Positions 26,413 to 52,657 of a DNA stretch of 64,000 nucleotides are shown piece after piece. A program made the position numbers and the translations under genes. The notes beneath the pieces are model-generated. The model did not search any database and had not been told where the DNA came from. It worked only from the letters and a program-made list of their open reading frames with translations. The DNA is from Candidatus Poribacteria bacterium (GTDB taxonomy: Bacteria; Abyssobacteria; SURF-5): assembly GCA_016215705.1 (NCBI GenBank), contig JACRIR010000051.1, positions 1 to 64,000 of the forward strand. The letters run 5' to 3'. How positions within the stretch are numbered: position 1 is the stretch's first letter; each line of letters starts with the position of its first letter.

Positions 26413-26413
26413 C

Positions 26414-27340
26414 ATGAGCCCGACCGCATTTTTCCAGCAACTGGTGAATGGACTGACGTTGGGAGGCATGTACGCTCTTGTGGCCTTAGGCTATACGATG
26501 GTCTATGGCATTATTCAGCTCATCAATTTCGCACACGGCGAAGTATTCATGGTTGGCGCATTCCTCGGCCTGCTTGCGTTGAGTTTCGCGGCGCAGTTGG
26601 GTCTGGAGGGAGTTGCTTTCACCCTCTGCCTGGCCTTCCTGGTTTCGATGGTGTTGACGAGCCTGGTAGGAATGGCCATCGAACACGTCGCCTACAGGCC
26701 GTTGCGTCAATCCCCTCGAATAACTCTCCTCCTCTCGGCCGTCGGAATGTCCATATTCCTTCAAAACCTGGTTATGCTCATCCGCAGCCGCGACCTCCAG
26801 CCGTTTCCCCGTATTATCACCGGCGGAGTGAACATCCAGGGCGTGATTCTGGATTATATCCAGATTCTCATAGCCGTCGCCAGCCTGGTCCTGATGCTCG
26901 CACTGGATTTGTTTGTCAACAGGACGCGGCTCGGCCAGGCCATGCGGGCAATTGCGCAAGACATGGAAGCCGCCCAAATGATGGGTATTGACATAAGCCA
27001 CGTTATTCGTTTGACGTTTATGGTCGGCTCAGGTCTCGCCGCCGCCGGCGGCATAATGAGCGGGTTATATTATGGAGGCATAAAGTTTGACATGGGATTC
27101 ATCGTGGGCATCAAAGCCTTCAGCGCAGCGGTCCTGGGCGGCATCGGGAGCATCCGGGGAGCGATGCTGGGCGGGTTTGTCCTCGGATTATGCGAAACAT
27201 TGCTGGTTGCCTTTCTCTCGGCGGCCGGAGTCACGGAGGCGTTTGCATACAAAGATGTCATCGCGTTTGCCATCCTGATTCTGGTTCTCATCCTCAAGCC
27301 TTCGGGTCTGATGGGTGAGCGCATCGTCGAAAAGGTGTAG
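26414..27340 (+). CDS. livH: branched-chain amino acid type ABC transporter permease LivH
   Basis: Inner-membrane permease, 308 aa with about eight hydrophobic segments. FFQQLVNGLTLGGMYALVALGYTMVYGIIQLINFAHGE is the classic LivH start, and the EAA-like LGGIGSIRGAMLGGFVLG loop is near residue 240. It begins one base after the livK stop. Confidence 0.93.
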   Translation: MSPTAFFQQLVNGLTLGGMYALVALGYTMVYGIIQLINFAHGEVFMVGAFLGLLALSFAAQLGLEGVAFTLCLAFLVSMVLTSLVGMAIEHVAYRPLRQSPRITLLLSAVGMSIFLQNLVMLIRSRDLQPFPRIITGGVNIQGVILDYIQILIAVASLVLMLALDLFVNRTRLGQAMRAIAQDMEAAQMMGIDISHVIRLTFMVGSGLAAAGGIMSGLYYGGIKFDMGFIVGIKAFSAAVLGGIGSIRGAMLGGFVLGLCETLLVAFLSAAGVTEAFAYKDVIAFAILILVLILKPSGLMGERIVEKV

Positions 27341-27346
27341 CATGCG

Positions 27347-27385
27347 TTATTCGGGGACACCGTGCCGCATGATGTCCCCAAATAA
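27347..27385. repeat. GGGGACAC-family palindrome between livH and livM
   Basis: TTATTCGGGGACACC with its inverted partner, centred on GTGCCGCAT. It sits in the 124-base gap inside the liv operon, one copy of the family described at 11225-11262. Confidence 0.7.
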
Positions 27386-27464
27386 ACAATGACTGCGTCC
27401 GGGAAATCACGACGGGATTCTACAAATTGAGCGTGAGTACCGCAATGTGACCTAGTGGAGAAGA

Positions 27465-28628
27465 ATGGACGTTATATACACAATCCTCCTTGTATTCTGC
27501 GGCTTCGCAATAATTGTGATCGGCCTGTCGCTTCAGCATGTGGGCCCGTTTCTGGTTTTTCTCGCATTTGTGACTGCCGGAGCGATCTTCCTTTCGCGTC
27601 TCGGCTGGCTCAGGAATTTTCGGCAAATTACGAATCGCAACCCGCGTTCTCTCTACTTTGCTCTTGCTCTCTGCATTGTCGCTTACCCATTCATATTCAC
27701 CTTGTTGAAGAGCGCTTATTGGATACATGTCGCCGCCATTGCCGGAATATACGCATGCCTTGCGCTCGGCTTGAATATCACCGTCGGGTTTGCCGGACTT
27801 CTCGATCTGGGATATGTCGCATTCTATGCAATCGGAGCATATTCGTCCGCCATCTTCTTCCGGCATTATCCTGATGCCCGATGGATGTTCTGGGTCATAC
27901 TGCCCGCAGCGGCTCTACTCGCGGGCATATTCGGACTGCTCCTGGGCAGTCCCACATTGAGGCTGCGCGGAGATTATCTTGCCATTGTCACTCTCGGATT
28001 CGGACAGATAGTCCGCATTATCGCGACCAATTGGGAATCGGTCACCAACGGCCCAAAAGGTATTGCCGACATCCCGGGCCCCACAATCGGGCGCTATTCC
28101 TTCGAGACAGGAATTCCGGTGGGGAGCCTCGTCCTGCCGCGAGTTGCCAACTACTATTTTCTCATAGTTCTGCTTGCCCTCGGAATAGGAGTTGCCGCCA
28201 ACCGGCTGAATCATTCGCGCATCGGGCGCGCATGGATAGCCATACGTGAAGACGAACTGGCTGCGAGTTGTTCGGGCGTCAACGTAACGGCAATCAAACT
28301 GCTGGCCTTCGCAATCGGCGCGAGTTTCGCAGGCATAGCAGGTGTCGTTTACTCGAGCCTGATAGGTTTCGTCGACCCGATGAGCTTCACTTTCATGGAA
28401 TCGGCAATGATCGTTTGCATGGTGGTCCTCGGCGGCATGGGAAGCATCCCGGGCGTAATCGTCGGCGCCATCGTGCTGGCGATACTGCCGGAAAAATTGC
28501 GCGAGTTCGAACAGATTCGGATGCTCCTGTTCGGGGCTGCGTTGATAGCTATGATGGCGTTCCGACCTGAAGGCCTGATCCCGAGTAAGCGAAGGGAACA
28601 GGAACTGCTCGAGACGACAGATGAATGA
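27465..28628 (+). CDS. livM: branched-chain amino acid type ABC transporter permease LivM
   Basis: Second permease subunit, 387 aa, with an N-terminal extension of two to three hydrophobic segments before the core LGLNITVGFAGLLDLGYVAFYAIGAY. The cytoplasmic coupling motif lies in GGMGSIPGVIVGAIVLAILPEKL near residue 325. It follows livH after a repeat and overlaps livG by eight bases. The GGAG Shine-Dalgarno before ATG 27465 is clear. Confidence 0.92.
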   Translation: MDVIYTILLVFCGFAIIVIGLSLQHVGPFLVFLAFVTAGAIFLSRLGWLRNFRQITNRNPRSLYFALALCIVAYPFIFTLLKSAYWIHVAAIAGIYACLALGLNITVGFAGLLDLGYVAFYAIGAYSSAIFFRHYPDARWMFWVILPAAALLAGIFGLLLGSPTLRLRGDYLAIVTLGFGQIVRIIATNWESVTNGPKGIADIPGPTIGRYSFETGIPVGSLVLPRVANYYFLIVLLALGIGVAANRLNHSRIGRAWIAIREDELAASCSGVNVTAIKLLAFAIGASFAGIAGVVYSSLIGFVDPMSFTFMESAMIVCMVVLGGMGSIPGVIVGAIVLAILPEKLREFEQIRMLLFGAALIAMMAFRPEGLIPSKRREQELLETTDE

Positions 28629-29424
28629 GAACACTCCGCTTCTGCAAATCCGACGATTGAGCAAATCTTTCGGCGGCCTGAAAGCCGTGGACGCCGTCGA
28701 TCTCGGAGTGCAGCCCGGCGAAATCCTGAGCATCATCGGCCCAAACGGCTCAGGCAAAACAACGCTCTTCAACGTTATCTCCGGTATCTACCTGCCCGAC
28801 GAAGGAGAAATCCTGCTTCGATCGCCGGACCAGCCTGAGATAAACCTGGTAGGTCTCAGGCCGCATCAAGTCACAGCCAAAGGCGTTGGCCGCACTTTTC
28901 AGAACATCCGCCTCTTCGCCAACATGACCGTGCTCGAAAACGTAATGGTCGGCATGCACTGCAGGTCGTCCTCAGGAGCATTGGGCGCTGTCCTGCAAGC
29001 CAAATCCGCGCGGAGGGAGGAGCGCAGGGTTGTCCAGGAGTCGCAACGACTTCTCGCCCTGTTCCACAGTCAACTGATTCCGGTCATGAACCAACCTGCG
29101 AAAGCCCTGCCTTTCGCCGACCGGAAGCGGTTGGAGATTATTCGCGCGATCGCATCCGAACCCAGGCTGCTCTTGCTTGATGAGCCCGCCGCAGGCATGA
29201 ATCCGCACGAGACAAGGGCTTTCATGGATGACCTGAAACGCCTTCGCGACAGGGGACACACACTCATGGTTATCGAGCACGACATGATGATGGTCAAAGG
29301 GCTGTCTGACCGCGTGATTGCATTTGACTACGGCCGCAAGATTGCCGAAGGCGTCTTCGAGCAAGTGCGCCGAAATGAGATGGTGATCGAGGCTTACCTG
29401 GGAAGAAAGCATGGCATTGCTTGA
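28621..29424 (+). CDS. livG: branched-chain amino acid type ABC transporter ATPase LivG
   Basis: ABC ATPase, 267 aa. Walker A GPNGSGKT at 40-47, Q-loop FQNIRLFANM (~90), a degenerate signature region KALPFADRKRLEIIRAIA (~161, the LPFADRKRLE form typical of LivG rather than LSGGQ), Walker B LLLLDEPAAGMNPHE (~180) and the switch His in VIEHDM. It overlaps livM by 8 bases and livF by 14, which argues for tight co-translation. Confidence 0.93.
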   Translation: MNENTPLLQIRRLSKSFGGLKAVDAVDLGVQPGEILSIIGPNGSGKTTLFNVISGIYLPDEGEILLRSPDQPEINLVGLRPHQVTAKGVGRTFQNIRLFANMTVLENVMVGMHCRSSSGALGAVLQAKSARREERRVVQESQRLLALFHSQLIPVMNQPAKALPFADRKRLEIIRAIASEPRLLLLDEPAAGMNPHETRAFMDDLKRLRDRGHTLMVIEHDMMMVKGLSDRVIAFDYGRKIAEGVFEQVRRNEMVIEAYLGRKHGIA

Positions 29425-30124
29425 GATGACAAATGTGGTCAGTTTTTATGGCCTCATCCAAGTGCTCAGGGGCGTGAGCCTCAGAGTCGAAAACGGAGAG
29501 ATTGTCTGCCTCCTCGGAAGCAATGGCGCGGGCAAGAGCACAACTATGAAGACTATTTTGGGCATTGTGCGCCCGCGCGAGGGCGCCATAAGCTTCAAGG
29601 GGGAACTGATTGATCGCTTGCCCACCTCCGCTGTCGTGTCGCGAGGAATATCGACCGTACCCGAATCCCGCCGCATATTCCCGCGTCTCTCCGTCGAGGA
29701 AAACCTTGAAATAGGAGCATATGTTCGCGGAGTCGGGCTTCACAGGTTGCGGCCTCAACTGGATCACGTATATTCGCTTTTCCCTCGATTGAAAGAACGC
29801 CGCCGTCAGGCCGGTGGAACCCTCAGCGGCGGCGAGCAACAAATGCTCGCAATCGGACGCGCGCTCATGGTGCAGCCTAAACTGGTGCTCATGGACGAGC
29901 CCTCAATGGGGCTTTCACCCGTCCTTGTCGATCAGATATTCGAAATCATCCAGTCCATAAACCAGGGAGGAACCTCGATCTTGCTCGTCGAACAGAACGC
30001 TCGGATGGCCCTGTCCATCGCCGGGCGCGGCTATGTGATGCAAACGGGGCGAATCGTTGCTGAAGGCACGGGCCAGGAACTCCTACACAGCGAGGAAATC
30101 CGAACCGCTTATTTGGGAGAGTAA
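29411..30124 (+). CDS. livF: branched-chain amino acid type ABC transporter ATPase LivF
   Basis: ABC ATPase, 237 aa. Walker A GSNGAGKST at 36-44, signature LSGGEQQMLAIGRALM near 137, Walker B LVLMDEPSMGLSP near 158, and the switch region LLVEQNA near 193. It completes the transporter with LivG. No terminator is obvious after it. Confidence 0.93.
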   Translation: MALLEMTNVVSFYGLIQVLRGVSLRVENGEIVCLLGSNGAGKSTTMKTILGIVRPREGAISFKGELIDRLPTSAVVSRGISTVPESRRIFPRLSVEENLEIGAYVRGVGLHRLRPQLDHVYSLFPRLKERRRQAGGTLSGGEQQMLAIGRALMVQPKLVLMDEPSMGLSPVLVDQIFEIIQSINQGGTSILLVEQNARMALSIAGRGYVMQTGRIVAEGTGQELLHSEEIRTAYLGE

Positions 30125-34722: not shown

Positions 34723-34811
34723 TTCGATGAATGTGCATTGCCCCTCTCATAGATCCCGATCCGTTGTGGTTCCGCCAGGGAAACCAATCGTGAGCAGAGG
34801 AATGTTTGCGA

Positions 34812-35429
34812 ATGACGAGTGACCCCACCTTTGAACCTCTTGTCTCCGAAACGCGCGAGCGCATACTGCGAGCCGCGATGGAGCTCTTCCGCAAACACGG
34901 ATTCAATAACACCTCCATAGCTCAGATTCTGCAGCACGCAAAGATCACCAAGGGCGGATTCTACTTCCACTTCAAGAGCAAGGAAGAACTCGGATTCATA
35001 GTCCTCGAGCGCACCCGGGATTTCTGGATGGAGAATGTCATCGACGTAATCGCCCAGGAAGCCGGCGTCAGGCGCCGCATAAGCCGCATGGTTGAGATTA
35101 TGACCGAGATGTATCGCGGCGACATCTTTCACGGTTGCGCGCTGCTTGCCGTGCTGACCGCCGAGATGATGGAACATCCGACGGAATTCGCCGACCGCAT
35201 AAGAAGCATAATAGCCGAATGGCAAAAGAGCATCATTGACATCCTTGAACAGGGCAAGACCGAAGGCATCTTCCGCAAGGATATGGATTCAAGCGCCTTG
35301 GCTCTGATTCTGATCGGATGCTGCCAGGGCACGACCATGATGGGACACCTTGACCCCGAAAACGTCAACTACGACCTGCTTCTTCATGACCTCGAGAAAT
35401 GGATTCTCGAGGGCTGCGCCCGACGCTGA
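34812..35429 (+). CDS. TetR-family transcriptional regulator
   Basis: About 205 aa. The helix-turn-helix domain is at residues ~12-58 (TRERILRAAMELFRKHGFNNTSIAQILQHAKITKGGFYFHFKSKEEL), and the remainder is a helical ligand-binding domain with two adjacent cysteines (GCCQGTT) near residue 172. I placed the start at ATG 34812, 10 bases after AGAGGA; a TTG at 34806 is possible. It precedes a MarR gene and the acyl-CoA cluster, so an acyl-CoA or fatty-acid-type ligand is plausible but not shown. Confidence 0.85.
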   Translation: MTSDPTFEPLVSETRERILRAAMELFRKHGFNNTSIAQILQHAKITKGGFYFHFKSKEELGFIVLERTRDFWMENVIDVIAQEAGVRRRISRMVEIMTEMYRGDIFHGCALLAVLTAEMMEHPTEFADRIRSIIAEWQKSIIDILEQGKTEGIFRKDMDSSALALILIGCCQGTTMMGHLDPENVNYDLLLHDLEKWILEGCARR

Positions 35430-35513: not shown

Positions 35514-35543
35514 TTGACAACGAATGTTCATGTCCTGTATAAT
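35514..35543 (+). promoter_or_regulatory. consensus promoter of the MarR-mutase operon
   Basis: TTGACA at 35514-35519, 18 bases, perfect TATAAT at 35538-35543. Transcription would start near 35550, 55 bases before the MarR ATG. Confidence 0.6.
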
Positions 35544-35604: not shown

Positions 35605-36054
35605 ATGATAACGCAAGACGCAGCCACAAGTTTTTGGAAAGCGTTCGACAAACTCATTCGTTCCTTCTCCTCGATGAACAACGTTTCCGGAATCATTGTC
35701 CTCGGCAAGCCGGATATCATTGCGCTTGAGGCTGTCTCCAGGAATGAGGGGCTCATTATGAGCGAGATGGCGCGGCTTCTGGAGATCAGGTTCAATACCG
35801 CAACGGGAATTGCTGACCGACTTGTTGAAAAGAAACTGTTAAAGCGCGAAGGAAAACATGGGGACAGGCGAGTAATTCGACTGTGTTTGACTGAAAAGGG
35901 CAGGAAAACCGTTACGGCTTATCAAAGGCATAGGGGAAAGTTTTTCAGGGAAATGATGGTCGCTCTTACGAAAAGTGAACAGGAAGCTTTTGTTTCTGTC
36001 CTCGTGAAAATCGCCGGCGTAATGGACAAGAAAAAAGGGGAAATGGCGAGGTGA
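35605..36054 (+). CDS. MarR-family transcriptional regulator
   Basis: 149 aa winged-helix regulator. MSEMARLLEIRFNTATGIADRLVEKKLLKREG is the recognition-helix region (about 51-83), followed by the wing GDRRVIRLCLTEKGR. It overlaps the downstream mutase gene by four bases, so it is co-translated with it and probably responds to the pathway's substrate or CoA thioester. A strong promoter with a palindrome over the -10 box lies directly upstream. Confidence 0.88.
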   Translation: MITQDAATSFWKAFDKLIRSFSSMNNVSGIIVLGKPDIIALEAVSRNEGLIMSEMARLLEIRFNTATGIADRLVEKKLLKREGKHGDRRVIRLCLTEKGRKTVTAYQRHRGKFFREMMVALTKSEQEAFVSVLVKIAGVMDKKKGEMAR

Positions 36055-37727
36055 TGTCGATGTTCAGCGAAAAGTTTCTGGAAAGCCTCAAAGCGGAATA
36101 CGGACGATGGGAGCAGAGTACTCTCAAGAAGATCCTTGATAAATATGGCATGACTTCGGATTCTATTCCCCGGCAGACATATACGCCGCTCGACATTGAG
36201 ACGACCGACTTCTCGAATTGTGTCGGATTTCCGGGCGAGTTCCCGTTCACACGCGGAATCTACCCCACCATGATAGTCGGAACAGGCATCGGAGGGCGGG
36301 CGTATTCCGGTTTCGGGAACCCGGAGGATACCCGCGACAGGCTCAGATTCTTGCTGTCGCAGGGACAGTTCGGCTTCAGCCTGGCCTTCGATCTGCCGAC
36401 GCAGATAGGTCTCGATTCGGACCATCCGCTGGCGACCGGCGAGGTCGGCAGGGTAGGGGTGGCCCTCAGCTCACTGCAGGACATGGAGACTATTCTGTCG
36501 GCGTTCGACGGCGGCGCGCCTCTTGACAGAATTCGCTCCTCCTTTACGACCAACGCCCAGGCGGTTGTCGTCCTGTCGATGTACATCGCGATGGCGGAGA
36601 AACTGGGCATTCCCCTGAACCAGCTTACCGGCACGATTCAAAACGATATCTTGAAGGAATACATCGCGCGGGGCACATATATCTTCCCGCCAACACCCTC
36701 GATGCGTCTTACAGGGGACATCTTCGAGTTTTGCTCCAGGAATATGCCGCGGTTCAACATGATAAGCATTTGCGGGTATCACATACGCGAGGCGGGCGCT
36801 ACCGCCTCGCAGGAATTGGCATTCATGTTGTGCAACGCCATCGCTTATTCGGAAGTGGCGCTCAAACGCGGACTCGGCCCGGACGACTTCCTCCCGAGAT
36901 TCAGCTTCCTGTTCAGCAGCCACAGCAATTTCTTCGAGGAGGTTGCCAAATTCCGCGCTGCCCGCAGAATGTGGGCAAAGATAGCGCGTGACCGGCTGGG
37001 CGCAAAGAAGACTGATTCGATGCGTTTCCGCGTTGCCTCCGGTTACGCGGGTTCCACGTTCACGGCGCAGAAACCTCTTAATAATATCGCGCGCGGCACG
37101 CTCGAATGTTTTGCGTCAATCATAGGCGGGAACATGGGGAGCGCCTCGGCGCCGTATGATGAAGCATTGGGATTGCCGACCGAAGAGGCCACCATAGTGG
37201 CGCTTGATACGCCTCGCATAATCCACTTCGAGGCGCGCGGCGCCGACGTGATAGACCCGCTCGGCGGCTCATACTATGTCGAACATCTGACCGACGCCCT
37301 GGAAGCGCGCGCCACCGATCTCATCAACAAGGTCGACGCCCTGGGCGGAGCAGTCGCTGCAATTGAAAAGGGATTCATTCAGGCGGAGGTTGAAAGCAGT
37401 TCGTACAAGATGCAAAAGGAAATTGAGGAAGGGATGCGCCGGATTGTCGGAGTGAACGAGTTTGTAGGTGAGACGCCGCCATTGCATCCGATGGAATTGG
37501 CGTCAGACATCGAGGATCGCAGAATCCGTGCGCTCAGGCAGTTGCGTGCTGAACGCAACAACGCAGCGGTCGAGAAATGTTTGAACCGGGTTCGCGTCGC
37601 AGCCGAAGGAACAGAAAATCTTATTCCGTCTGTCATGGATGCGGTCAAGGCTATGGCCACCAACGGCGAGATATGCGGCGTCCTAAGAGAAGTTTTCGGC
37701 GAAGCGCAACCGTTTACTTCGTACTAG
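36051..37727 (+). CDS. methylmalonyl-CoA-mutase-type large subunit, divergent substrate region
   Basis: Catalytic (TIM-barrel) chain of a B12-dependent acyl-CoA mutase without its own B12 domain, 558 aa. Family blocks: FPGEFPFTRGIYPTM (~60), [14 protein letters not shown] (~113), [21 protein letters not shown] (~200), [10 protein letters not shown] with the conserved active-site His (~241), DEALGLPTEEA (~370) and DPLGGSYYVE (~402). The CoA/substrate strip differs from methylmalonyl-CoA mutase: VGTGIGGRAYSGF instead of [29 protein letters not shown] instead of LRTHSQTSGWSLTAQ, and NMGSASAPYDEA instead of [13 protein letters not shown]. Arg83 and Tyr85 (equivalents of MutB R87/Y89) and an Arg in IARGT remain. 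A different acyl-CoA is likely. Starts at GTG 36051, ATG 36054 or ATG 36060 are all possible. Confidence 0.85.
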   Translation: MMSMFSEKFLESLKAEYGRWEQSTLKKILDKYGMTSDSIPRQTYTPLDIETTDFSNCVGFPGEFPFTRGIYPTMIVGTGIGGRAYSGFGNPEDTRDRLRFLLSQGQFGFSLAFDLPTQIGLDSDHPLATGEVGRVGVALSSLQDMETILSAFDGGAPLDRIRSSFTTNAQAVVVLSMYIAMAEKLGIPLNQLTGTIQNDILKEYIARGTYIFPPTPSMRLTGDIFEFCSRNMPRFNMISICGYHIREAGATASQELAFMLCNAIAYSEVALKRGLGPDDFLPRFSFLFSSHSNFFEEVAKFRAARRMWAKIARDRLGAKKTDSMRFRVASGYAGSTFTAQKPLNNIARGTLECFASIIGGNMGSASAPYDEALGLPTEEATIVALDTPRIIHFEARGADVIDPLGGSYYVEHLTDALEARATDLINKVDALGGAVAAIEKGFIQAEVESSSYKMQKEIEEGMRRIVGVNEFVGETPPLHPMELASDIEDRRIRALRQLRAERNNAAVEKCLNRVRVAAEGTENLIPSVMDAVKAMATNGEICGVLREVFGEAQPFTSY

Positions 37728-37745
37728 TAGAGTGCTTCCTAAATA
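37725..37745. repeat. TAGAGTGCTTCCTAAAT word at a gene 3' end
   Basis: TAG-stop followed by TAGAGTGCTTCCTAAAT. The same arrangement, stop plus TGGAGTGCTTCCTAAAT, occurs after the DUF374 gene at 54095-54115. It may be the edge of a small repeat element. Confidence 0.45.
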
Positions 37746-37816
37746 AGATGCATTGATTCGGCTACGGTCTCCCCCTTCGCCTTCTCAATGTACACCCTGT
37801 ATCCCGGGAGAATATT

Positions 37817-38620
37817 ATGAACGACAACCACATGCTGCTTGAAAAAGACGGCTACGTCGCCACCATAACCATCAATCGACCCGATCAGCGCAACGCCATG
37901 CTGTCAATCATGTGGAAATGGCTCGGCGAAACGATGGATAAGCTAAGCGAAGACAACGACGTCAGGTGTGTTATCATCCGTGGCGCGGGCGACAAGGCGT
38001 TTGCGTCGGGAGCTGACATCTCAGAATTTGAGGTGTGGACCAGCCAGGAGAAAGCGCGGGAATATGGCGGCCGCATCGAATACGCCCTCCAGAGCATCGA
38101 GAAGCACAGAAACCCGGTGATTGCGATGATTCAGGGCTATGCCCTTGGCGCGGGCTGCGAGCTCGCGGTCGCCTGCGACCTCCGGATTCTCGCCGACGGC
38201 TCAAAAATCGGCATCCCGTCGGCAAAACTCGGCGTAATGCTGAATTACGAGAATTATCATAGAGTTGTCGACCTGGTAGGCATCTCGATTGCGCGAGAAA
38301 TATTCTTCCTGGGCCATCCCCTTGATGCGCAGCGCGCGAAAGAAGTCGGATTGGCCAATTTCGTTGTGCCCAAACCGGAACTGCAAACGTTCACTTGCGA
38401 GATCGCACGCGAGATTTCGGAAAATGCTCCGCTATCGGTGAGGGGAAGCAAGCGTGTTCTGCACGCATGCGCCGTGCACGGAATGCTTGATCGCGACCGC
38501 GACGCCGATGCGCTCGCGCAGCTCGATGACTTGAGCGCAGCTTGCTTCTTGAGCGAGGACGTGAAGGAGGGCGTAAGCGCCTTCTTCGGCCGCCGCAAGG
38601 CCGATTTCAAAGGGGAATGA
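37817..38620 (+). CDS. crotonase-family protein, methylmalonyl-CoA-decarboxylase-like
   Basis: 267 aa enoyl-CoA hydratase/isomerase superfamily. Oxyanion-hole segments ASGADISEF (~63-71) and GYALGAGCELAVACD (~107-121) are present, with E115 matching the first catalytic Glu of enoyl-CoA hydratase. The second catalytic Glu is absent: the PE pair is P134-S135. The following LGVMLNYENYHRVVDLVG, then FFLGHPLDAQRAKEVGL, resemble E. coli YgfG (methylmalonyl-CoA decarboxylase: LGVPYN..., TAQRALAVGIL). I therefore infer decarboxylation or another non-hydratase reaction. It lies 89 bases after the mutase with a GGGAG Shine-Dalgarno. Confidence 0.75.
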   Translation: MNDNHMLLEKDGYVATITINRPDQRNAMLSIMWKWLGETMDKLSEDNDVRCVIIRGAGDKAFASGADISEFEVWTSQEKAREYGGRIEYALQSIEKHRNPVIAMIQGYALGAGCELAVACDLRILADGSKIGIPSAKLGVMLNYENYHRVVDLVGISIAREIFFLGHPLDAQRAKEVGLANFVVPKPELQTFTCEIAREISENAPLSVRGSKRVLHACAVHGMLDRDRDADALAQLDDLSAACFLSEDVKEGVSAFFGRRKADFKGE

Positions 38621-38665
38621 ACCAGGTTCACGGTTTACAGCCTACAGTTTACGGTTGAATCGAGG
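38621..38665. repeat. GGTTCACGGTTTACGG-family repeat
   Basis: Words GGTTCACGGTTTAC, CTACAGTTTACGGTTGAATC, similar to 34291-34335. Confidence 0.6.
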
Positions 38666-38686
38666 AGAAGCTGACAACTTTACCTT

Positions 38687-38759
38687 ATTCCCTCGAAAGC
38701 GGGAATCCACGTTCGTGATGTCTCAGCGCACAAATCTGGATTCCTGCTTTCGCGGGAAT
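38687..38759. repeat. CGAAAGCGGGAATCC inverted repeat (dRS3-like)
   Basis: The left arm 38687-38709 (ATTCCCTCGAAAGCGGGAAT...) and right arm 38737-38759 (...ATTCCTGCTTTCGCGGGAAT) are inverted copies. The element reads through in the frame of the next gene, adding a false N-terminus that contains FPRKRES and CFRGNDG, the usual translation of this repeat. Confidence 0.8.
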
Positions 38760-38789
38760 GACGGTGAGGGTGTGGTAGGGAGATTACCG

Positions 38790-40118
38790 ATGAACATGAC
38801 ACGTGAACTCTGTGACGCAATTGAAAGGACTACTTTCGAGCAGATTCCGACTGACGCCATTGCGGAAGCGAAGCTCTGCCTGCTCGACTGGCTGGGCGTA
38901 ACGCTAGGCGGCGCCCATGAGCCGCTCACGAAGATTCTTATGGAGATTGGCGACCTCGTCGGGGGCGAGAAGCAGTCCAGCATTGTCGGCCATGCGCGCA
39001 AGACCTCGATTCTGAACGCGGCCTTGATTAACGGCTCCGCGTCGCATGCGCTCGATTTCGATGACGTACACTTCCAGATGATGGGTCATCCGACCGTGCC
39101 GGTCATGCCCGCGCTACTCTCATTGGCCGAAGTTCGAAAGAGCAGCGGGCGTGATGTTCTCACTGCATTTTTGCTCGGATTCGAGGCGGAGTGCAGAATC
39201 GGATCCTCAGTCTTCCCGTTTCATTACCAGCAAGGCTGGCATGCGACCTCGACAATCGGACGCTTCGGAGCAGCGGCCGCATGTTCAAAGTTGCTCGGCC
39301 TCGACGCGGCGCGCATGAGTTTCGGCCTTGGCGTGGCCGGCACACAAGCGGCCGGCCTCAAGCAGGTCTTCGGTACAATGTCCAAGCCGTTCCACGCCGG
39401 AAAAGCCGCGATGGATGGGCTTCTTGCGGCTTTGCTCGCCGAAAAAGGCTTCACTTGCTCCGAGGATATCATTGCAGGCGAGGGCGGTTTCTGCAAAGTG
39501 CTCTCGCCGGACGCGAATCCTGAATTGATCATGCAGGACTTTGGCAAGACATACGCCATCGGGAACGTTATGTTCAAGCGGCATGCCTCTTGTTTTGAGA
39601 CGCATCCGACCATCGACGCGGCCCTCGATATTCGCAGTAAGGTGCGCGCGGACGATATCGCGGAAGTGCGAGTCTCCGCGGTTCCGGTCGCTCTCGAGAT
39701 CGCCGGAAAAACTGAACCTAGCACCGGTCTCGAAGGCAAGTTCAGCCTTGCCTATTGCGCTGCGCTTGCACTCGTCGACGGCGAGACGGGTGAAGACCGT
39801 TTCTCGGATGAAAATGTTCTGAGCGATCAACTGGTCGCAATGCGCAAGAAGATAACAGTGACCCCTGACGAACAACTCGGCTTGACACAAGCGGAAATCA
39901 CCGTGCGGATGCGCGACGGTCGCCAATTGAAGAGCAGCGCCGACACGCTCGAGTCCGGCTCAAACAAAGAAAAGCGAAAAGCCGACCTTGTTCGGAAGTT
40001 CCGCTCTTTCGCCGAACGGCTCCTTCCGCCAGGCAGGGCGGATGCCATAATTAGATTTGTCGAGAACATGGAAGCGCAGAAGAACGTGGCAAAACTCTTA
40101 GCCCTCTGCCGTCCATGA
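38790..40118 (+). CDS. MmgE/PrpD family protein
   Basis: 442 aa. The family includes 2-methylcitrate dehydratase and cis-aconitate decarboxylase, acting on branched tricarboxylates or related acids. Signature pieces: LLDWLGVTLGGAHEP (~29), NGSASHALDFDDVHFQMMGHPTVPVMPALL (~80), FKRHASCFETHPTIDAA (~257) with conserved His/Cys, and KFSLAYCAALALVDGE (~320). The start is ATG 38790, seven bases after AGGGAG; the longer open frame to 38655 only translates a repeat. It sits between the crotonase and CoA-transferase genes, so it probably prepares or consumes the free acid that the CoA-transferase activates. The actual substrate is unknown. Confidence 0.8.
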   Translation: MNMTRELCDAIERTTFEQIPTDAIAEAKLCLLDWLGVTLGGAHEPLTKILMEIGDLVGGEKQSSIVGHARKTSILNAALINGSASHALDFDDVHFQMMGHPTVPVMPALLSLAEVRKSSGRDVLTAFLLGFEAECRIGSSVFPFHYQQGWHATSTIGRFGAAAACSKLLGLDAARMSFGLGVAGTQAAGLKQVFGTMSKPFHAGKAAMDGLLAALLAEKGFTCSEDIIAGEGGFCKVLSPDANPELIMQDFGKTYAIGNVMFKRHASCFETHPTIDAALDIRSKVRADDIAEVRVSAVPVALEIAGKTEPSTGLEGKFSLAYCAALALVDGETGEDRFSDENVLSDQLVAMRKKITVTPDEQLGLTQAEITVRMRDGRQLKSSADTLESGSNKEKRKADLVRKFRSFAERLLPPGRADAIIRFVENMEAQKNVAKLLALCRP

Positions 40119-40144
40119 TATTGGACGGCGTGCTGTGGAGGCGC

Positions 40145-40183
40145 TTATTCGGGGACATCATGCCGCATGGTGTTGCCGAATGA
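40145..40183. repeat. GGGGACAC-family palindrome
   Basis: TTATTCGGGGACATCATG and its inverted partner ending CCGAATGA, between the MmgE/PrpD and CoA-transferase genes. Confidence 0.65.
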
Positions 40184-40230
40184 GCGGCTGCGGCGCGGTC
40201 CCCGCTTAGCAACCAAACAAAGGAGCCAAA

Positions 40231-41424
40231 ATGCAGAAAATTCTCGAAGGCGTCAGGATACTCGACCTCTCACGCATGCTCGCGGGCCCATATGGCTCCA
40301 TGCTTCTCGGAGACCTCGGCGCAGAAGTCATTAAAATCGAAGAACCCGGCAGCGGTGACCTCACCCGGACAACTTCCGCTCAGGCCGCTCTTCGGGGCAT
40401 CAGCGCATACTTTCTGAGCATCAATCGAAGCAAGAAGAGCGTTACGCTGAATATGAAGACCGAAAAAGGGCGCGCCATCTTCTACGAACTCGTCAAGAAG
40501 GCTGATGTTGTCTACGACAACTTCCGGCCGGATGCTCTCGAGAGGCTCGGATGCACATATGAGATTCTTTCAAAACACAACCCCGGAATTATTTGCTGTT
40601 CGGTATCGGCATTCGGACACGACGGTCCCTATCGCGACCTGCCCGCATACGATGTCATTCTTCAGGCAATCGGCGGCACAATGGGCCTTACAGGACCCGA
40701 AGGCGGCGACCCGGTTCTGATGGGAGTGCCGATGGGCGACCTTGGCGGCGGCATTTTCGGGGCGCTCGCGATATCAGCGGCGCTTTACAATCGTGAGAAA
40801 ACCGGCTGCGGCCAGAAGCTGGATATCAGTCTGCTCGACAGCCAGATATCGTTGCTGGTCTACATGGCGCAAACTTACATAGCCAACGGACAGGTTCCTA
40901 AGCCCCGCGGCACAATGCACCCGCTGATCGCCCCTTTCCGTGCGTTCAAAACAAGGGACGGCCACATTGCGGTGGTCGCTTTCCAGGATAAATTCTTTGA
41001 GAGCTTTTGCCGGATAATCGAACGCGAAGACCTCCTGACCGATGAACGGTTTGACAACTTGATTAATCGCGCTTTGAACAAGACTGAGTTGTATGCTATA
41101 TTGGATACGATTTTCCCGAGAAAAACGACCGCTGAGTGGCTTGCGCCGTTGCGTGAAGCTCAAATTCCCTCGGGTCCCGTGAACGACATCAAGGATGCCT
41201 TGAATGATATCCAGGTGCGACACAGAAAGATGGTTGTCGAGATTGACCACCCCGAAATCGGGCGCTACGAGGCTCTGGGGAATCCTATAAAATCGTCGGC
41301 GATGCACGATGGCGAATTCATGCCGCCGCCTGCGCTTGGCCAACATACGGACGAAGTGCTCGGCGCGCTGGCCGGTCTTTCGGCCGATGAGATCAAGTCT
41401 TTGCGCAATGAAGGCGTGATCTGA
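40231..41424 (+). CDS. class III CoA-transferase (CaiB/BaiF family)
   Basis: 397 aa. Transfers CoA between carboxylic acids. N-terminal LEGVRILDLSRMLAGPYGSMLLGDLGAEVIKIEEPG is the family start. The catalytic Asp is D141 in LPAYDVILQAIGG. RDVIAVA-type and PSGPVNDIKDALND blocks follow near 310. A GGAG Shine-Dalgarno stands before ATG. The family covers formyl-, carnitine-, benzylsuccinyl-, mesaconyl- and itaconyl-CoA transferases, so the neighbouring mutase and crotonase suggest a dicarboxylic acid substrate. Which one cannot be read from the sequence. Confidence 0.88.
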   Translation: MQKILEGVRILDLSRMLAGPYGSMLLGDLGAEVIKIEEPGSGDLTRTTSAQAALRGISAYFLSINRSKKSVTLNMKTEKGRAIFYELVKKADVVYDNFRPDALERLGCTYEILSKHNPGIICCSVSAFGHDGPYRDLPAYDVILQAIGGTMGLTGPEGGDPVLMGVPMGDLGGGIFGALAISAALYNREKTGCGQKLDISLLDSQISLLVYMAQTYIANGQVPKPRGTMHPLIAPFRAFKTRDGHIAVVAFQDKFFESFCRIIEREDLLTDERFDNLINRALNKTELYAILDTIFPRKTTAEWLAPLREAQIPSGPVNDIKDALNDIQVRHRKMVVEIDHPEIGRYEALGNPIKSSAMHDGEFMPPPALGQHTDEVLGALAGLSADEIKSLRNEGVI

Positions 41425-41456
41425 TATCCCCTAGGTCGGGGACATCACGCCGATCT

Positions 41457-41487
41457 CTTAGCACACTTTTTCATAAATACGGTGACG
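41457..41487. repeat. inverted copy of the element at 46002-46032
   Basis: CTTAGCACACTTTTTCATAAATACGGTGACG (31 bases) is the reverse complement, with a few changes, of 46002-46032. Here it follows the CoA-transferase gene; the partner ends selA. Confidence 0.6.
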
Positions 41488-41541
41488 AATAAACTCTAAG
41501 CTCTGAACCCCAAACCAGATATCTTGGGAGGACATGAGGGT

Positions 41542-41940
41542 ATGCCTGAAAAGAAAATACGAGTGTTGGTTGCCAAGCCCGGTCTTGACGGCCACGACCG
41601 CGGCGCAAAAGTCATTGCGCGCGCGCTCCGCGACGCCGGAATGGAAGTCATTTACACTGGTCTTCGTCAAACCCCTGAGCAGATCGTTTCTGCGGCTTTG
41701 CAGGAGGACGTGGACGTGATAGGTCTGAGCGTCCTTTCGGGCGCTCATATGGGACTGACTCAGAAAATCATAGCCAGGCTCAAAGAGCAAAATGCCGGCG
41801 ACAAAATGGTGCTGGTGGGGGGAACCATCCTCGCAAAAGATATCCCTAAGTTGAAAGATATGGGTGTTGCCGAAGTCTTTCCGACGGGCAGTCGCCTCGA
41901 AGAACCGATCAAATTTATCAAAGAACGACTCGGAAACTGA
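41542..41940 (+). CDS. methylmalonyl-CoA-mutase small subunit, B12-binding domain
   Basis: 132 aa. The cobalamin-binding signature is D16-x-H18-x-x-G21 (LDGHDRG), then GLSVLSGAH (~57) and LVGGTI (~86), placing the lower axial His in the expected position. This is the separate C-terminal half of a two-subunit acyl-CoA mutase, as in isobutyryl-CoA mutase and archaeal MCM. ATG 41542 follows GGGAGG; a TTG at 41524 is less likely. It is the only such subunit in the window, while two large subunits (36051 and 50993) lack a B12 domain. Confidence 0.92.
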
Positions 41941-42337: not shown

Positions 42338-43414
42338 ATGCCTGAAATAAGAAAACTTGATATCGACACCCCCGCTCTTCTCATTGACCTCGACAGAATG
42401 GAACATAACATCAAGAAGATGGCAAGTTTCTTCGATATGCAGTTCTCCAACTTGAGGCCGCACACAAAGACCCATAAATGTCCCGTCCTGGCGCACAAAC
42501 AGCTTCAGGCAGGCGCTCAAGGGATAACGTGCGCAAAATTGGGCGAAGCAGAGGTAATGGCCGCCGCAGGCATACGGGATATCCTTATCGCCAACCAGAT
42601 AGTGGGCCCCGACAAAATCGCGCGTCTGGCAAATCTCGCCCGACATTGCGACATCATGGTGGCCGTCGAATCTCGCCACAATGTCGCAGACCTCTCCATG
42701 GCGGCGAGGCATGCGGGCTCCACTATTCGCATTCTCATCGAGGTCGATGTCGGAATGCACCGGTGCGGCGTGAAGAGCCCGGAAGAAGCGGTCTCGCTTG
42801 CTCAAAAGATTCTGGAAAGCCCGGGGCTGCAATTCGAGGGCATCATGGGTTACGAGGGCCACGCGGTAATGATTCCGGAACTCGACGACCGGCGACAGGC
42901 CTGTCTCAAGTCGATGCAAGTCCTGATAGGCGCCAGAGATGCCCTGCTGAAGAGCGGAATCGAAGTGAAGATTGTAAGCGCAGGCGGAACCGGAACGTAC
43001 AACATCGCAGGTTCGTACCCGGGAGTAACGGAAATCCAGGCGGGCTCCTACATACTCATGGATGCAAAATATCGAAGCGTGCTGCAGGATTTTGAATCGG
43101 CCCTCACAATCCTTTCTACGGTCACGAGTCGGCCCGACAAGGAAACAGCGATCCTCGACGCGGGCATGAAGGCGATGACGTTTGAATTCGGGATGCCGGA
43201 GCTTGTCGGAGTCGCCGGCGCCGCCGTCTCTTTCCTCTCCGAGGAACACGGCCACCTGTATCTTGAGGATGCGGACCCCCAGGTGGGTGAAAAAGTCGAG
43301 CTCATTCCCAGTCATTGCTGCACAACCATCAATCTCCATGACCGCTTTTACGCCGTTCGCGGAGATCGTCTGGAGGCCGTCTGGTCTGTTGCCGGCCGCG
43401 GCAAATTCGCGTAG
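42338..43414 (+). CDS. PLP-dependent D-threonine aldolase/D-serine dehydratase-like enzyme (DSD1 family)
   Basis: 358 aa fold-type III PLP enzyme. N-terminal DTPALLIDLDRMEHNIKKM, PLP-Lys region RPHTKTHKC (~46), then IEVDVGMHRCGV (~135), GYEGHAVM (~170), SAGGTGTYNIA (~208) and QAGSYILMD (~230). The C-terminal domain has SHCCTTINLHD (~327), the His/Cys zinc site typical of D-threonine aldolase and D-serine dehydratase. It probably acts on a D-beta-hydroxy amino acid. It is 397 bases from the mutase small subunit, behind repeats, so membership in that operon is not certain. Confidence 0.82.
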   Translation: MPEIRKLDIDTPALLIDLDRMEHNIKKMASFFDMQFSNLRPHTKTHKCPVLAHKQLQAGAQGITCAKLGEAEVMAAAGIRDILIANQIVGPDKIARLANLARHCDIMVAVESRHNVADLSMAARHAGSTIRILIEVDVGMHRCGVKSPEEAVSLAQKILESPGLQFEGIMGYEGHAVMIPELDDRRQACLKSMQVLIGARDALLKSGIEVKIVSAGGTGTYNIAGSYPGVTEIQAGSYILMDAKYRSVLQDFESALTILSTVTSRPDKETAILDAGMKAMTFEFGMPELVGVAGAAVSFLSEEHGHLYLEDADPQVGEKVELIPSHCCTTINLHDRFYAVRGDRLEAVWSVAGRGKFA

Positions 43415-43499: not shown

Positions 43500-43528
43500 T
43501 TGACAAACATAGATATGTGTGGTATAAT
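43500..43528 (+). promoter_or_regulatory. perfect-consensus orphan promoter
   Basis: TTGACA at 43500-43505, exactly 17 bases, TATAAT at 43523-43528. It reads rightward, toward the 3' end of selB on the opposite strand, with no protein gene in between. Confidence 0.6.
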
Positions 43529-48750: not shown

Positions 48751-50301
48751 ATGTCGACTTTCGAGCAGATCGATAAACTTAAGAAACTCCAGGAGCAGGC
48801 GCTCATGGGGGGTGGTGAGGAACGCATCAAGGAGCAACATGAAAAGGGTAAACTCACTGCCCGCGAAAGAATTGATATGCTCTTAGATAAGGGTTCTTTC
48901 ACAGAGTTGGGCGCATTTGTTACACATAAATGCGCACACTTCGGAATGGAGAAAAGAAAATATCTCGGCGACGGAATCGTTACCGGCTATGGCGCTATTG
49001 CCGGACGGCAGGTGTATGTCTTTGCGCATGATTTCACCGTCGTCGGAGGCACTCTCGGCCACGCATTTGCAGAAAAAACGTGCAGACTAATGGAATTGGC
49101 GATGCGCAACGGCGCACCCGTCATCGGCCTGAACGACTCCGGTGGAGCGCGCATCCAGGAAGGCGTCGAAAGCCTTGCCGGATATGCAGACATATTCTTG
49201 CGCAATACGCTGGCCTCGGGCGTCATCCCGCAAATATCGGTCATTCTGGGTCCGTGCGCGGGCGGCTCGGTGTATTCTCCCGCGCTGACGGATTTCATCT
49301 TCATGGTCGACAACACGAGTTACATGTTCATAACCGGTCCCGAAGTGATCAAAGCGACCACCTACGAGGAAGTCACCAAGGAAGACCTTGGGGGGTCGCA
49401 TACCCATTCGACCCGGAGCGGTGTTTGCCATTTCGCGATGCCCGATGAGACCAGTTGCTTTGACGCCATACGCGAGCTCTTGTCATACGTTCCTCAGAAC
49501 AACATCGAGGAACCTCCGTTCGTGCCGACTGCCGATCCGCCTGACCGCGCGGACGAATCGTTGAACTCAATCATTCCTGACAATCCAAAGGAATCATATG
49601 ACATGTACAAAGTCATTCGCTCGGTTGCGGATGACGGCCGTTTCTTGGAAGTCCATGCCGGGTTCGCGCGCAACATAATCGTGGGTTTCGCTCGACTTGG
49701 AGGACGGTCCGTCGGCATTGTGGCAAATCAGCCGATGGCGCTGGCCGGCTGCCTCGACATAAATGCGTCCGTTAAAGCAGCCCGGTTCGTACGGTTCTGC
49801 GATGCGTTCAACATCCCGATAGTTACCTTCGAGGATGTGCCGGGGTTCCTGCCGGGCACAGCCCAGGAATTCGGCGGGATAATCGTTCATGGCGCGAAAC
49901 TCTTGTACGCTTACTGCGAAGCTACCGTGCCCCGTGTTACCGTTATCACCCGCAAGGCCTATGGCGGCGCATACTGCGTGATGTCGTCTAAACATGTGCG
50001 GTGCGACATCAATTATGCATGGCCCTCAGCCGAGATCGCCGTAATGGGTCCTGACGGAGCCATCAATATCGTCTTTCGGAAAGAACTCGCCGAGGCAAAA
50101 GACCGCGAAGAGGCCCGCAAAAAGCTGCTCGAGGACTATAAGGAGAAGTTTGCGAGTCCGTACATCGCCGCCGAACTCGGATATGTGGACGAAGTAATCG
50201 AACCCGGGATGACGCGGGTGAAGCTAATAAGAGCGCTTGAGTCGCTCCGGAATAAACGCGATACAAATCCACCCAAGAAACACGGGAATATTCCCCTGTG
50301 A
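48751..50301 (+). CDS. pccB: acyl-CoA carboxylase beta (carboxyltransferase) subunit
   Basis: Biotin-dependent carboxyltransferase, 516 aa, PccB/MmdA type. Signature: [19 protein letters not shown] (~31), [20 protein letters not shown] (~131), [15 protein letters not shown] (~167), [17 protein letters not shown] (~311), [11 protein letters not shown] (~368) and [16 protein letters not shown] (~398), the two halves of the crotonase-like fold. It could belong to propionyl-CoA carboxylase or methylmalonyl-CoA decarboxylase. A separate biotin carrier follows and a mutase comes next, so the propionyl/methylmalonyl/succinyl-CoA route is likely. No biotin carboxylase or membrane beta-subunit is in the window. 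Confidence 0.9.
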
Positions 50302-50378
50302 CTTTCGACCTTCGACCGTGCGATGACATGGGTTTTGGCTGCGGCTACACCGCGTCGTGAGATGTGAGGCCTTTCGTT

Positions 50379-50852
50379 GTGAAGAAACTGGAGTTGCTGG
50401 TCAACGGGAAATCGTATAATGTGGAAGTAATCCGGACCGGCGGCGAAGTCGCTCGTGTGATCGTAAATGGCTCGCCATACGACGTCGTCATCAAGGACCT
50501 GCCGGAAGGGCATTTCCCGCAGGTGAGGACCACGGCCGAGAAGGCTGCGCAAGCCGCTGCTGTCGGTTTTCCACCCGCGCAGATGAAACATGAGTTCGCG
50601 GCCGCCGAAGGCGTTACCGTCGTAAAGTCGCCTCTCCCCGGCCTCATCCTCGACGTCAAGACGGGCGTAGGAGACTCAGTAAATGCCGGTGACACACTTG
50701 TCGTCATCGAAACCATGAAAATGGAGAATAATGTCGTATCGCCTGTTTCGGGTGTGGTCAAAGAAATCAAAGTCTCGAAAGACCAAACCGTGAACGAAGG
50801 GGTTCCTCTCATAGTCATCGGTCCCCTTTCCCCCTTTATTGTGAACGACTGA
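50379..50852 (+). CDS. biotin carrier protein (acyl-CoA carboxylase / decarboxylase)
   Basis: 157 aa from GTG 50379 (an upstream GTG at 50364 is possible). N-terminal KKLELLVNGKSYNVEVI is an OadA/BCCP-like start, an Ala/Pro linker is at about 55-80, and a biotinyl domain at about 85-155 has the site ETMKMEN, with K114 as the biotinylated lysine. It partners the carboxyltransferase upstream. The Ala/Pro linker is that of decarboxylase/carboxylase carriers. Confidence 0.9.
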   Translation: MKKLELLVNGKSYNVEVIRTGGEVARVIVNGSPYDVVIKDLPEGHFPQVRTTAEKAAQAAAVGFPPAQMKHEFAAAEGVTVVKSPLPGLILDVKTGVGDSVNAGDTLVVIETMKMENNVVSPVSGVVKEIKVSKDQTVNEGVPLIVIGPLSPFIVND

Positions 50853-50992
50853 CCACGCCTTTGGTGTGATTAACTGTGAAAGGAAGGCTCGTTGCGCTAT
50901 GGTCATGCGGGTGGAGAGTAGCAATCTCTTCATCTTTGCTTTTCCCCTTTCGCCTTTGACCTTTCGCCTTTCGCCTTCCTTGGGAGACGACT

Positions 50993-52657
50993 ATGAACAT
51001 GGAAGAGCTTGGAAAACTACACAAGCAGTGGGAAGAAAAAACTCTGGGCAAGGTTTTGAGCAAGTTCCCCGAGCGATCAAACAAGTTCCAAACCGACTCC
51101 GGCATCGAACTTCGCCGCGTGTACTCACCCCTCGATCTTGACGACGTCGACTACCAGAGGGAACTGGCCTTTCCGGGCGAGTATCCCTATACGCGCGGAA
51201 TTCAGCCGACCATGTATCGCGGCCGCCTTTGGACAATGCGCCAATATGCCGGCTTTGCCAACGCGCGGGAATCGAATCGTCGTTACCGCTTCCTGCTTGA
51301 GCACGGACAAACGGGCCTGAGCATCGCGTTCGATCTGCCCACTCAGATAGGCTACGATTCCGATCATCCCCTGGCCGATGGGGAAGTCGGCAAGGTCGGC
51401 GTCGTCATCGATTCTTTGAGAGACGTCGAAATCCTTTTCGACCAGATTCCTCTCGATAAGGTGACGACCTCGATGACAATCAATTCGACTGCCGCGATCT
51501 TGCTTGCCATGTATGTGGCGCTTGCGAAGAAACGGGGGACCCCGCTCGACAAACTCGGTGGCACGATACAGAACGATATCCTCAAGGAATACGTTGCTCG
51601 CGGGACACACAGGTTTCCGATAAATCCCTCGATGCGCCTAGTAACCGACACTTTTAAATACTGCACGAAGAATCTGCCCCGTTGGAACATGATCAGCATC
51701 AGCGGGTATCACATACGCGAGGCGGGCTCCACGGCAGTCCAGGAAGTAGCCTTCACCCTTGCGAATGCGATTGCCTACGTGCAAGCCGCAGTTGACGCCG
51801 GCCTCGATGTCGACGACTTTGCCGGACGCCTTTCGTTCTTCTTCAATTCGCATAACAACTTTTTTGAAGAAATTGCGAAATTCCGGGCCGCGAGGCGACT
51901 GTGGGCTCGCATTGTGAGAGACCGTTTCCATGCGAAGAAACCCGGCTCGGAAATGCTTCGCTTTCATACGCAGACCGCCGGATGCACGCTCACCGTTCAG
52001 CAATATGAGAACAACGTCGTGCGCGTGGCTTTCCAGGCGTTGGCAGCCGTGCTGGGCGGAACGCAATCGCTTCATACCAACTCGAGGGATGAGGCTCTGT
52101 GCCTGCCGACCGAGGAATCCGTCCGGTTGGCGCTGCGCACCCAGCAGCTGATTGGTTACGAGAGCGGTGTCGCCGATGTCGTCGACCCGCTGGGCGGCTC
52201 CTACTTCATTGAGCGTCTTACATCCGAGATCGAAAAGGCCGCAGCCGACTACATTCAAAAGATCGACTCGATGGGCGGTTCGATCTCTGCGATCAAAAAC
52301 GCCTATCTGCAAAAGGAAATCCAGGATAGTTCATACAGGTATCAGCAAGCAATCGAGAGCGGCGAAAAAGTAATTGTGGGAGTCAATAAGTTCCAGACCG
52401 AAGAGCCGCCTCCGGAGAAACTGCTCGAGGTCGATCCGAAAACACAGGCCGAGCAAATCGAAGGGCTGAAAAAAGTGCGCGCCGAGCGAGACAACGCTTC
52501 CGCGCAAGCATCGCTCGAGCGCCTGCGGGAAGCCGCATCGGGCGACGTTAACCTCATGGAGCCCATAATCGAGTGCGTCGAGAGATATGTAACCCTTGGT
52601 GAGATATGCTCAACGCTGGCGCAGGTTTTTGGAGAAGCGGCCGAAACCAATCCGTAG
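50993..52657 (+). CDS. methylmalonyl-CoA mutase large subunit, canonical substrate region
   Basis: 554 aa, catalytic chain of B12 acyl-CoA mutase without B12 domain. It has the classic substrate strip: [14 protein letters not shown] (~75-88; T81, R83, Q84 and Y85 match MutB T85/R87/Q88/Y89), [14 protein letters not shown] (~113), [11 protein letters not shown] (~203), [10 protein letters not shown] with the active-site His (~238), [15 protein letters not shown] (~323) and [20 protein letters not shown] (~361). Methylmalonyl-CoA/succinyl-CoA is the likely pair. It would need a separate B12 subunit; the only one in the window is at 41542. It follows the carboxyltransferase and biotin carrier. 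ATG 50993 is preceded by GGGAGAC. Confidence 0.9.

Follow-up and report, generated by a model that had tools for sequence, protein, structure and literature searches.

A conserved gene cluster for the probable degradation of a 2-substituted succinate in a relative of Candidatus Abyssobacteria

Introduction

In anaerobic alkane degradation, it has been described as unclear which genes carry out the steps that follow fumarate addition (PMC8163825). For (1-methylalkyl)succinates an epimerase step is expected, and a proposed racemase is missing from Smithella and JS1 genomes (PMC6776118). In the alkylsuccinate synthase cluster of Desulfoglaeba, an MmgE/PrpD gene stands beside the mutase genes, with no function given for it (PMC7180275), and in the papers searched we found no function assigned to the MmgE/PrpD proteins of ass clusters. 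Here, an operon was analyzed that lies in a window of 64,000 nucleotides (positions 1 to 64,000 of contig JACRIR010000051.1, assembly GCA_016215705.1). Behind a MarR regulator it encodes the large subunit of a B12-dependent acyl-coenzyme A (CoA) mutase (Mut1), a crotonase, an MmgE/PrpD protein (PrpD), a class III CoA-transferase (CaiB), and a B12-binding small subunit. The probable role of the operon is the degradation of a 2-substituted succinate, which may bear an alkyl, methyl, or aryl group, by epimerization, activation, rearrangement, and decarboxylation.

The ass/mas pathway, for example that of Desulfoglaeba alkanexedens (PMC7180275), resembles the window in its separate B12 subunit and the MmgE/PrpD gene in the cluster, and Mut1 is sister to the mutases linked to the alkylsuccinate synthase gene masD. 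That pathway has an AMP-forming ligase where the window has a class III CoA-transferase; the crotonase-type decarboxylase is a feature of the window, and alkylsuccinate synthase was not found in its source genome. The Sbm operon of Escherichia coli (scpA-argK-scpB-scpC) likewise unites a mutase, a ScpB-type crotonase, and a CoA-transferase, but the window mutase belongs to another clade and has a split B12 subunit, the CoA-transferase is of another class, an MmgE/PrpD gene is added, and the operon has no MeaB/ArgK. For anaerobic indoleacetate degradation (IaaL, IaaGH, IaaF), the consulted passages of the report describe an active phenylsuccinyl-CoA transferase followed by an active B12 mutase on aryl-succinyl-CoA (PMC8360864). 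According to that description, on which the likeness is drawn, a decarboxylating dehydrogenase stands in place of the crotonase, and MmgE/PrpD is not mentioned in those passages. Among solved proteins, iminodisuccinate epimerase (PDB 2hp3), which acts on a C2-substituted succinate, comes closest to the PrpD group in profile comparison; its substrate is N-substituted, however, and its score is about equal to that of Bacillus subtilis MmgE and hence not decisive. The first-pass annotation of the window, which knew of no described pathway with this gene set, went too far in view of the Desulfoglaeba and indoleacetate systems. The link of mutase and MmgE/PrpD to alkane degradation has been partly described before, and the present combination of genes is new.

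Proposed Pathway and Mutase

The analysis shows which genes the operon holds, that each of its proteins is kin to proteins encoded at masD-linked and five-gene loci, that catalytic residues are retained, and that selection is purifying. The reactions, their order, and the substrate are predicted from sequence. The MmgE/PrpD protein would invert the C2 stereocenter of the free acid, and the class III transferase would transfer CoA from succinyl-CoA onto the acid. The mutase, together with the B12 subunit, would then convert the substituted succinyl-CoA to a substituted malonyl-CoA, from which the ScpB-type crotonase would remove CO2 to give an acyl-CoA for β-oxidation. These results support the earlier proposal of a route that activates a substituted dicarboxylate, rearranges it, and decarboxylates it, as well as the alkylsuccinate suggested as a possible substrate; for itaconate and mesaconate, named as further options, there was no specific support.

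Mut1 does not fit an ordinary methylmalonyl-CoA mutase, although Y85, R207, and H244 (window numbering) are retained; Y85 and R207 match the Tyr89/Arg207 pocket of the canonical methylmalonyl-CoA mutase. We take the Tyr and Arg to bind the free carboxylate in that enzyme and the His to be catalytic. Tyr85 and Arg207 form a dicarboxylate signature, in contrast to Phe/Gln in an isobutyryl-type mutase that this genome also encodes; the remaining mutase of the genome has the methylmalonyl-type signature (Tyr/Arg). Three otherwise near-constant motifs, YRxRxWTxRQYAGF, HxQT, and SLHTNS, are replaced in Mut1, which carries VASGYAG and MGSASAPY at the positions of the latter two. Mutases whose loci encode a MasD-like glycyl radical enzyme also have these three regions replaced, and the Mut1 segments AYSGFGNPEDTR and APYDEALGLP fit the clade patterns (YSG(F/Y)G-like and PP(Y/F)DE(P/A)LGL-like).

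In a maximum-likelihood tree, Mut1 was sister to the masD-linked mutase clade, whose members often adjoin masD (support 99/99). This position held when the three motif regions were removed (99/97), and Mut1 was not nested inside the clade. The glycyl radical enzyme of one locus (L137) was MasD-like, with 705 bits to 9o8u compared with 419 bits to BssA. All operon genes were under purifying selection in a comparison of the source genome (G000) with a second genome of the phylum (G001). The ratio of nonsynonymous to synonymous substitution rates was 0.066 for Mut1, similar to its neighbors, and the possibility of a pseudogene was rejected.

Crotonase, MmgE/PrpD Protein, and CoA-transferase

The crotonase had been likened to YgfG, and this assignment was upheld by a clade with E. 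coli ScpB (methylmalonyl-CoA decarboxylase) and mutase-linked crotonases, with a support of 97 in the Shimodaira-Hasegawa-like approximate likelihood ratio test (SH-aLRT; the supports for the crotonase, PrpD, and CaiB trees come from short searches). E115 is retained, and the position of the second hydratase Glu is occupied by S135. The protein scored below the cut-off of the NCBIfam model for methylmalonyl-CoA decarboxylase (164 versus 257 bits).

The MmgE/PrpD protein has both Pfam domains and the conserved His/Lys/Asp set. Its apparent reading frame is lengthened by an inverted repeat, and because the first in-frame start (38655) reads through this repeat, the ATG at 38790 is considered the real start. 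Window PrpD and the masD-linked PrpDs fall in one clade (SH-aLRT 99). Profile scores of the PrpD group were 288 bits for iminodisuccinate epimerase, 285 for B. subtilis MmgE, 200 for aconitate decarboxylase, and 73 for methylcitrate dehydratase. Since iminodisuccinate epimerase acts on another C2-substituted succinate, the MmgE/PrpD protein would be a fitting epimerase candidate. Epimerization of the free acid is the least certain step of the proposed route, and we put the chance that this protein may catalyze it slightly below even.

The transferase is not of the class I YgfH/ScpC type, as the gene matches Pfam CoA_transf_3 with 428 bits. Its best solved relative is succinate-3-hydroxy-3-methylglutarate CoA-transferase, a catalytic-type Asp (D170) lies within MGDLGGG, and it groups with the CaiB of the five-gene locus L240 (SH-aLRT 94).

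Gene Set in Other Genomes

The neighborhoods (≤9 kb from the mutase) of 39 clade loci from other genomes were compared with the neighborhoods of other related mutases (79 loci). An MmgE/PrpD gene was present at 23 of the 39 clade loci, MasD at 10 (all 10 also counted for PrpD), and a ScpB-like crotonase at 9, compared with none of the 79 in each case, and CaiB was present at 9 clade loci versus 3 others; the p-values for these counts overstate the association because the loci are not independent, some being from one genome and all sharing descent. Of 395 genomes searched by profile, all from the phylum of genome G017, 33 had the mutase clade, and the reciprocal search for the window PrpD type also gave 33. 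Both occurred together in 27 genomes, where 2.8 were expected; the PrpD profile derives from proteins encoded at mutase loci, which favors matches of that kind, and leaving out four of the shared genomes used to build it gave 23 of 29 shared.

Co-occurrence of the five genes elsewhere, a check proposed in the first-pass annotation, was confirmed. The exact set is present on one strand at two Desulfobacterota-type loci, L240, which has TRAP dicarboxylate transporter genes between the five genes, and L242, which additionally has a MeaB GTPase. Near-complete sets were found at L244, L248, L249, and L250, and L249 carries a TctABC transporter. A protein of 610-627 amino acids adjoins the mutase and B12 genes at L240:7283-9112, L242:10682-12562, L248:9052-10932, and L148:7355-9199. 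The L240, L242, and L148 copies are radical SAM plus PDZ proteins by Pfam, the L248 copy was assigned from its sequence start, and the protein is not part of the window operon. No member of the mutase clade was found outside G012 among 398 genomes of its phylum, and the 23 genomes from the class that includes G036 had none. G012 itself has 14 glycyl radical enzyme matches, of which several resemble MasD, and the masD-linked clade is represented there by at least four mutases.

Operon Layout and Host Genome

The source genome is a 5.47-Mb draft metagenome-assembled genome (92% complete). Among named organisms, Candidatus Abyssobacteria SURF_17 has the mutase nearest to Mut1 (82% identity), and the window comes from a bacterium related to Candidatus Abyssobacteria. 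MarR and the five genes lie on the forward strand where the first-pass annotation had put them, and its family assignments were correct, with profile matches far beyond chance (Table 1).

The operon is kept at the same place in all three genomes of the phylum that were compared (G000, G001, and G002), and it is wider than five genes, since the TetR gene and the BhcC/D-serine-dehydratase-like gene (Ald) are retained in all three. The order in G000 is TetR, MarR, Mut1, crotonase, PrpD, CaiB, B12, and Ald. G001 has the same order with two further genes ahead of B12, for a sirtuin and for another divergent mutase (Mut2); Mut2 (L087:5537-7246) has altered GYH, HxQT, and SLHTNS motifs, and the sirtuin is at L087:7243-8085. 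In G002 the order is TetR, crotonase, PrpD, CaiB, sirtuin, B12, and Ald, and MarR and the mutase, present in two of the three genomes, are both missing. In this point the first-pass reading of the set was not fully right.

Table 1. Features of the operon and its flanks in the window
Feature	Position	Strand	Evidence and remarks
TetR-family regulator	34806-35429	+	Pfam TetR_N 59 bits; opens conserved locus; same position in G001 and G002
Promoter-like site TTGACA-18-TATAAT	35514-35543	+	Upstream of MarR-mutase; 12/12 consensus positions; consensus match only
MarR-family regulator	35605-36054	+	Pfam MarR 27.9 bits; synteny; partner of mutase, both missing from G002 operon
Acyl-CoA mutase large subunit (Mut1)	36051-37727	+	GTG start; 4-nt overlap with MarR; MM_CoA_mutase 591 bits
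ScpB/YgfG-type crotonase	37817-38620	+	ECH_1 167 bits; probable substituted-malonyl-CoA decarboxylase
Inverted-repeat element, palindromic, non-coding	38686-38765	+	Crotonase-PrpD gap; sequence read
MmgE/PrpD protein	38790-40118	+	MmgE_PrpD_N 244 bits, C domain 111 bits; probable free-acid epimerase
Class III (CaiB/BaiF) CoA-transferase, SUGCT-like	40231-41424	+	CoA_transf_3 428 bits
B12-binding small subunit	41542-41940	+	Alternative longer TTG start 41524; DGHDRG motif; B12-binding 91 bits; TIGR00640 161 bits, above cut-off
BhcC/D-serine-dehydratase-like pyridoxal phosphate protein (Ald)	42338-43414	+	Closes conserved locus

A second perfect sigma-70-like promoter match (12/12) is located at 43500-43528 on the forward strand, between two convergent genes. 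No cobalamin riboswitch or other Rfam RNA was found in the window. A complete ABC transporter set of the branched-chain-amino-acid type (25264-30124) lies upstream on the same strand, with other genes intervening. Downstream, at 48751-52657, a carboxyltransferase, a biotin carrier, and a methylmalonyl-type mutase are encoded without an adjoining B12-subunit gene, and the B12 subunit encoded at 41.5 kb may serve them as well. The whole source genome contains eight glycyl radical enzymes and 30 B12-binding-domain matches.

Discussion

Several observations weigh against degradation of a substituted succinate by this operon. Mut1 has lost residues that in known mutases contact adenosylcobalamin, and the crotonase has Leu at the position of ScpB Tyr140. 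The PrpDs of L249, L247, L244, and L243 lie outside the window PrpD clade. The window operon has neither a transporter nor a MeaB gene, and no good match to this mutase chaperone was found anywhere in G000 (92% complete), whereas G001 and G002 have matches of about 300 bits. The mutase is not constant in the operon, because that of G002 is retained with no local mutase. MasD was not found in G000, G001, or G002, where the best glycyl radical enzyme had 31% identity to it; the acid is therefore probably imported, made another way, or another substituted succinate such as methylsuccinate.

Part of this evidence would fit a passenger role for Mut1, structural or dispensable; the partner of the B12 subunit would then be the methylmalonyl-type mutase encoded at 51 kb, and the crotonase, PrpD, and CaiB would work mutase-free. 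The loss of the Mut1 motifs, the B12 gene kept without Mut1 in G002, and the lack of an adjoining B12 gene at the canonical mutases are in line with such a role. We consider it improbable, as a mutase of the masD-linked clade, accompanied by a B12 gene of its own, is encoded elsewhere in the G002 genome, Mut1 is under purifying selection, and the clade is repeatedly linked with other genes of the set. Within the same pathway class, the MmgE/PrpD protein could instead be a dehydratase or decarboxylase that converts a tricarboxylate or a hydroxy-acid to the succinate-type acid, like 2-methylcitrate dehydratase or cis-aconitate decarboxylase. Such activities are known in the family, the match to the cis-aconitate decarboxylase profile is strong, and the transporter at L249 is of the tricarboxylate type. 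However, this PrpD clade also occurs at loci with masD, and there the acid is a dicarboxylate from the outset; the profile scores, which do not fix function, favor iminodisuccinate epimerase and MmgE; we regard this variant as rather unlikely, though worth keeping in mind.

A mutase, a ScpB-type crotonase, and a CoA-transferase also make up the Sbm set, and the operon could be a plain route from succinate to propionate or serve general propionyl-CoA metabolism. This is quite improbable given that Mut1 belongs to a different clade, MmgE/PrpD is not part of Sbm, and the region at 48.7-52.7 kb encodes a methylmalonyl-type mutase of its own together with a carboxylase. Mutases are reversible, and the operon might run in reverse to make a substituted succinate, as proposed for the matlystatin and actinonin warheads (PMC5719088). 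The decarboxylase-type crotonase, the transporters in homologous operons, and the TetR/MarR control all speak against biosynthesis, genes for which were not seen nearby, and this direction seems very improbable indeed.

For the steps of anaerobic alkane degradation whose genes are described as unclear, the locus and its relatives supply testable candidates, namely MmgE/PrpD for epimerization and the ScpB-type crotonase for decarboxylation. The mutase clade informs how B12 mutases can alter otherwise conserved active-site motifs, and versions with transporter genes but no masD point to substituted succinates as food shared between organisms. A wider picture, which we offer as speculative and less likely than not, would combine a lineage of B12 mutases whose rebuilt cofactor-facing site takes bulky substituted succinyl-CoAs, MmgE/PrpD as the epimerase that several alkane degraders lack, and bacteria without masD that live on substituted succinates released by others. 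In this deep-subsurface bacterium, the gene set is related to genes that finish the anaerobic digestion of oil alkanes in some bacteria.

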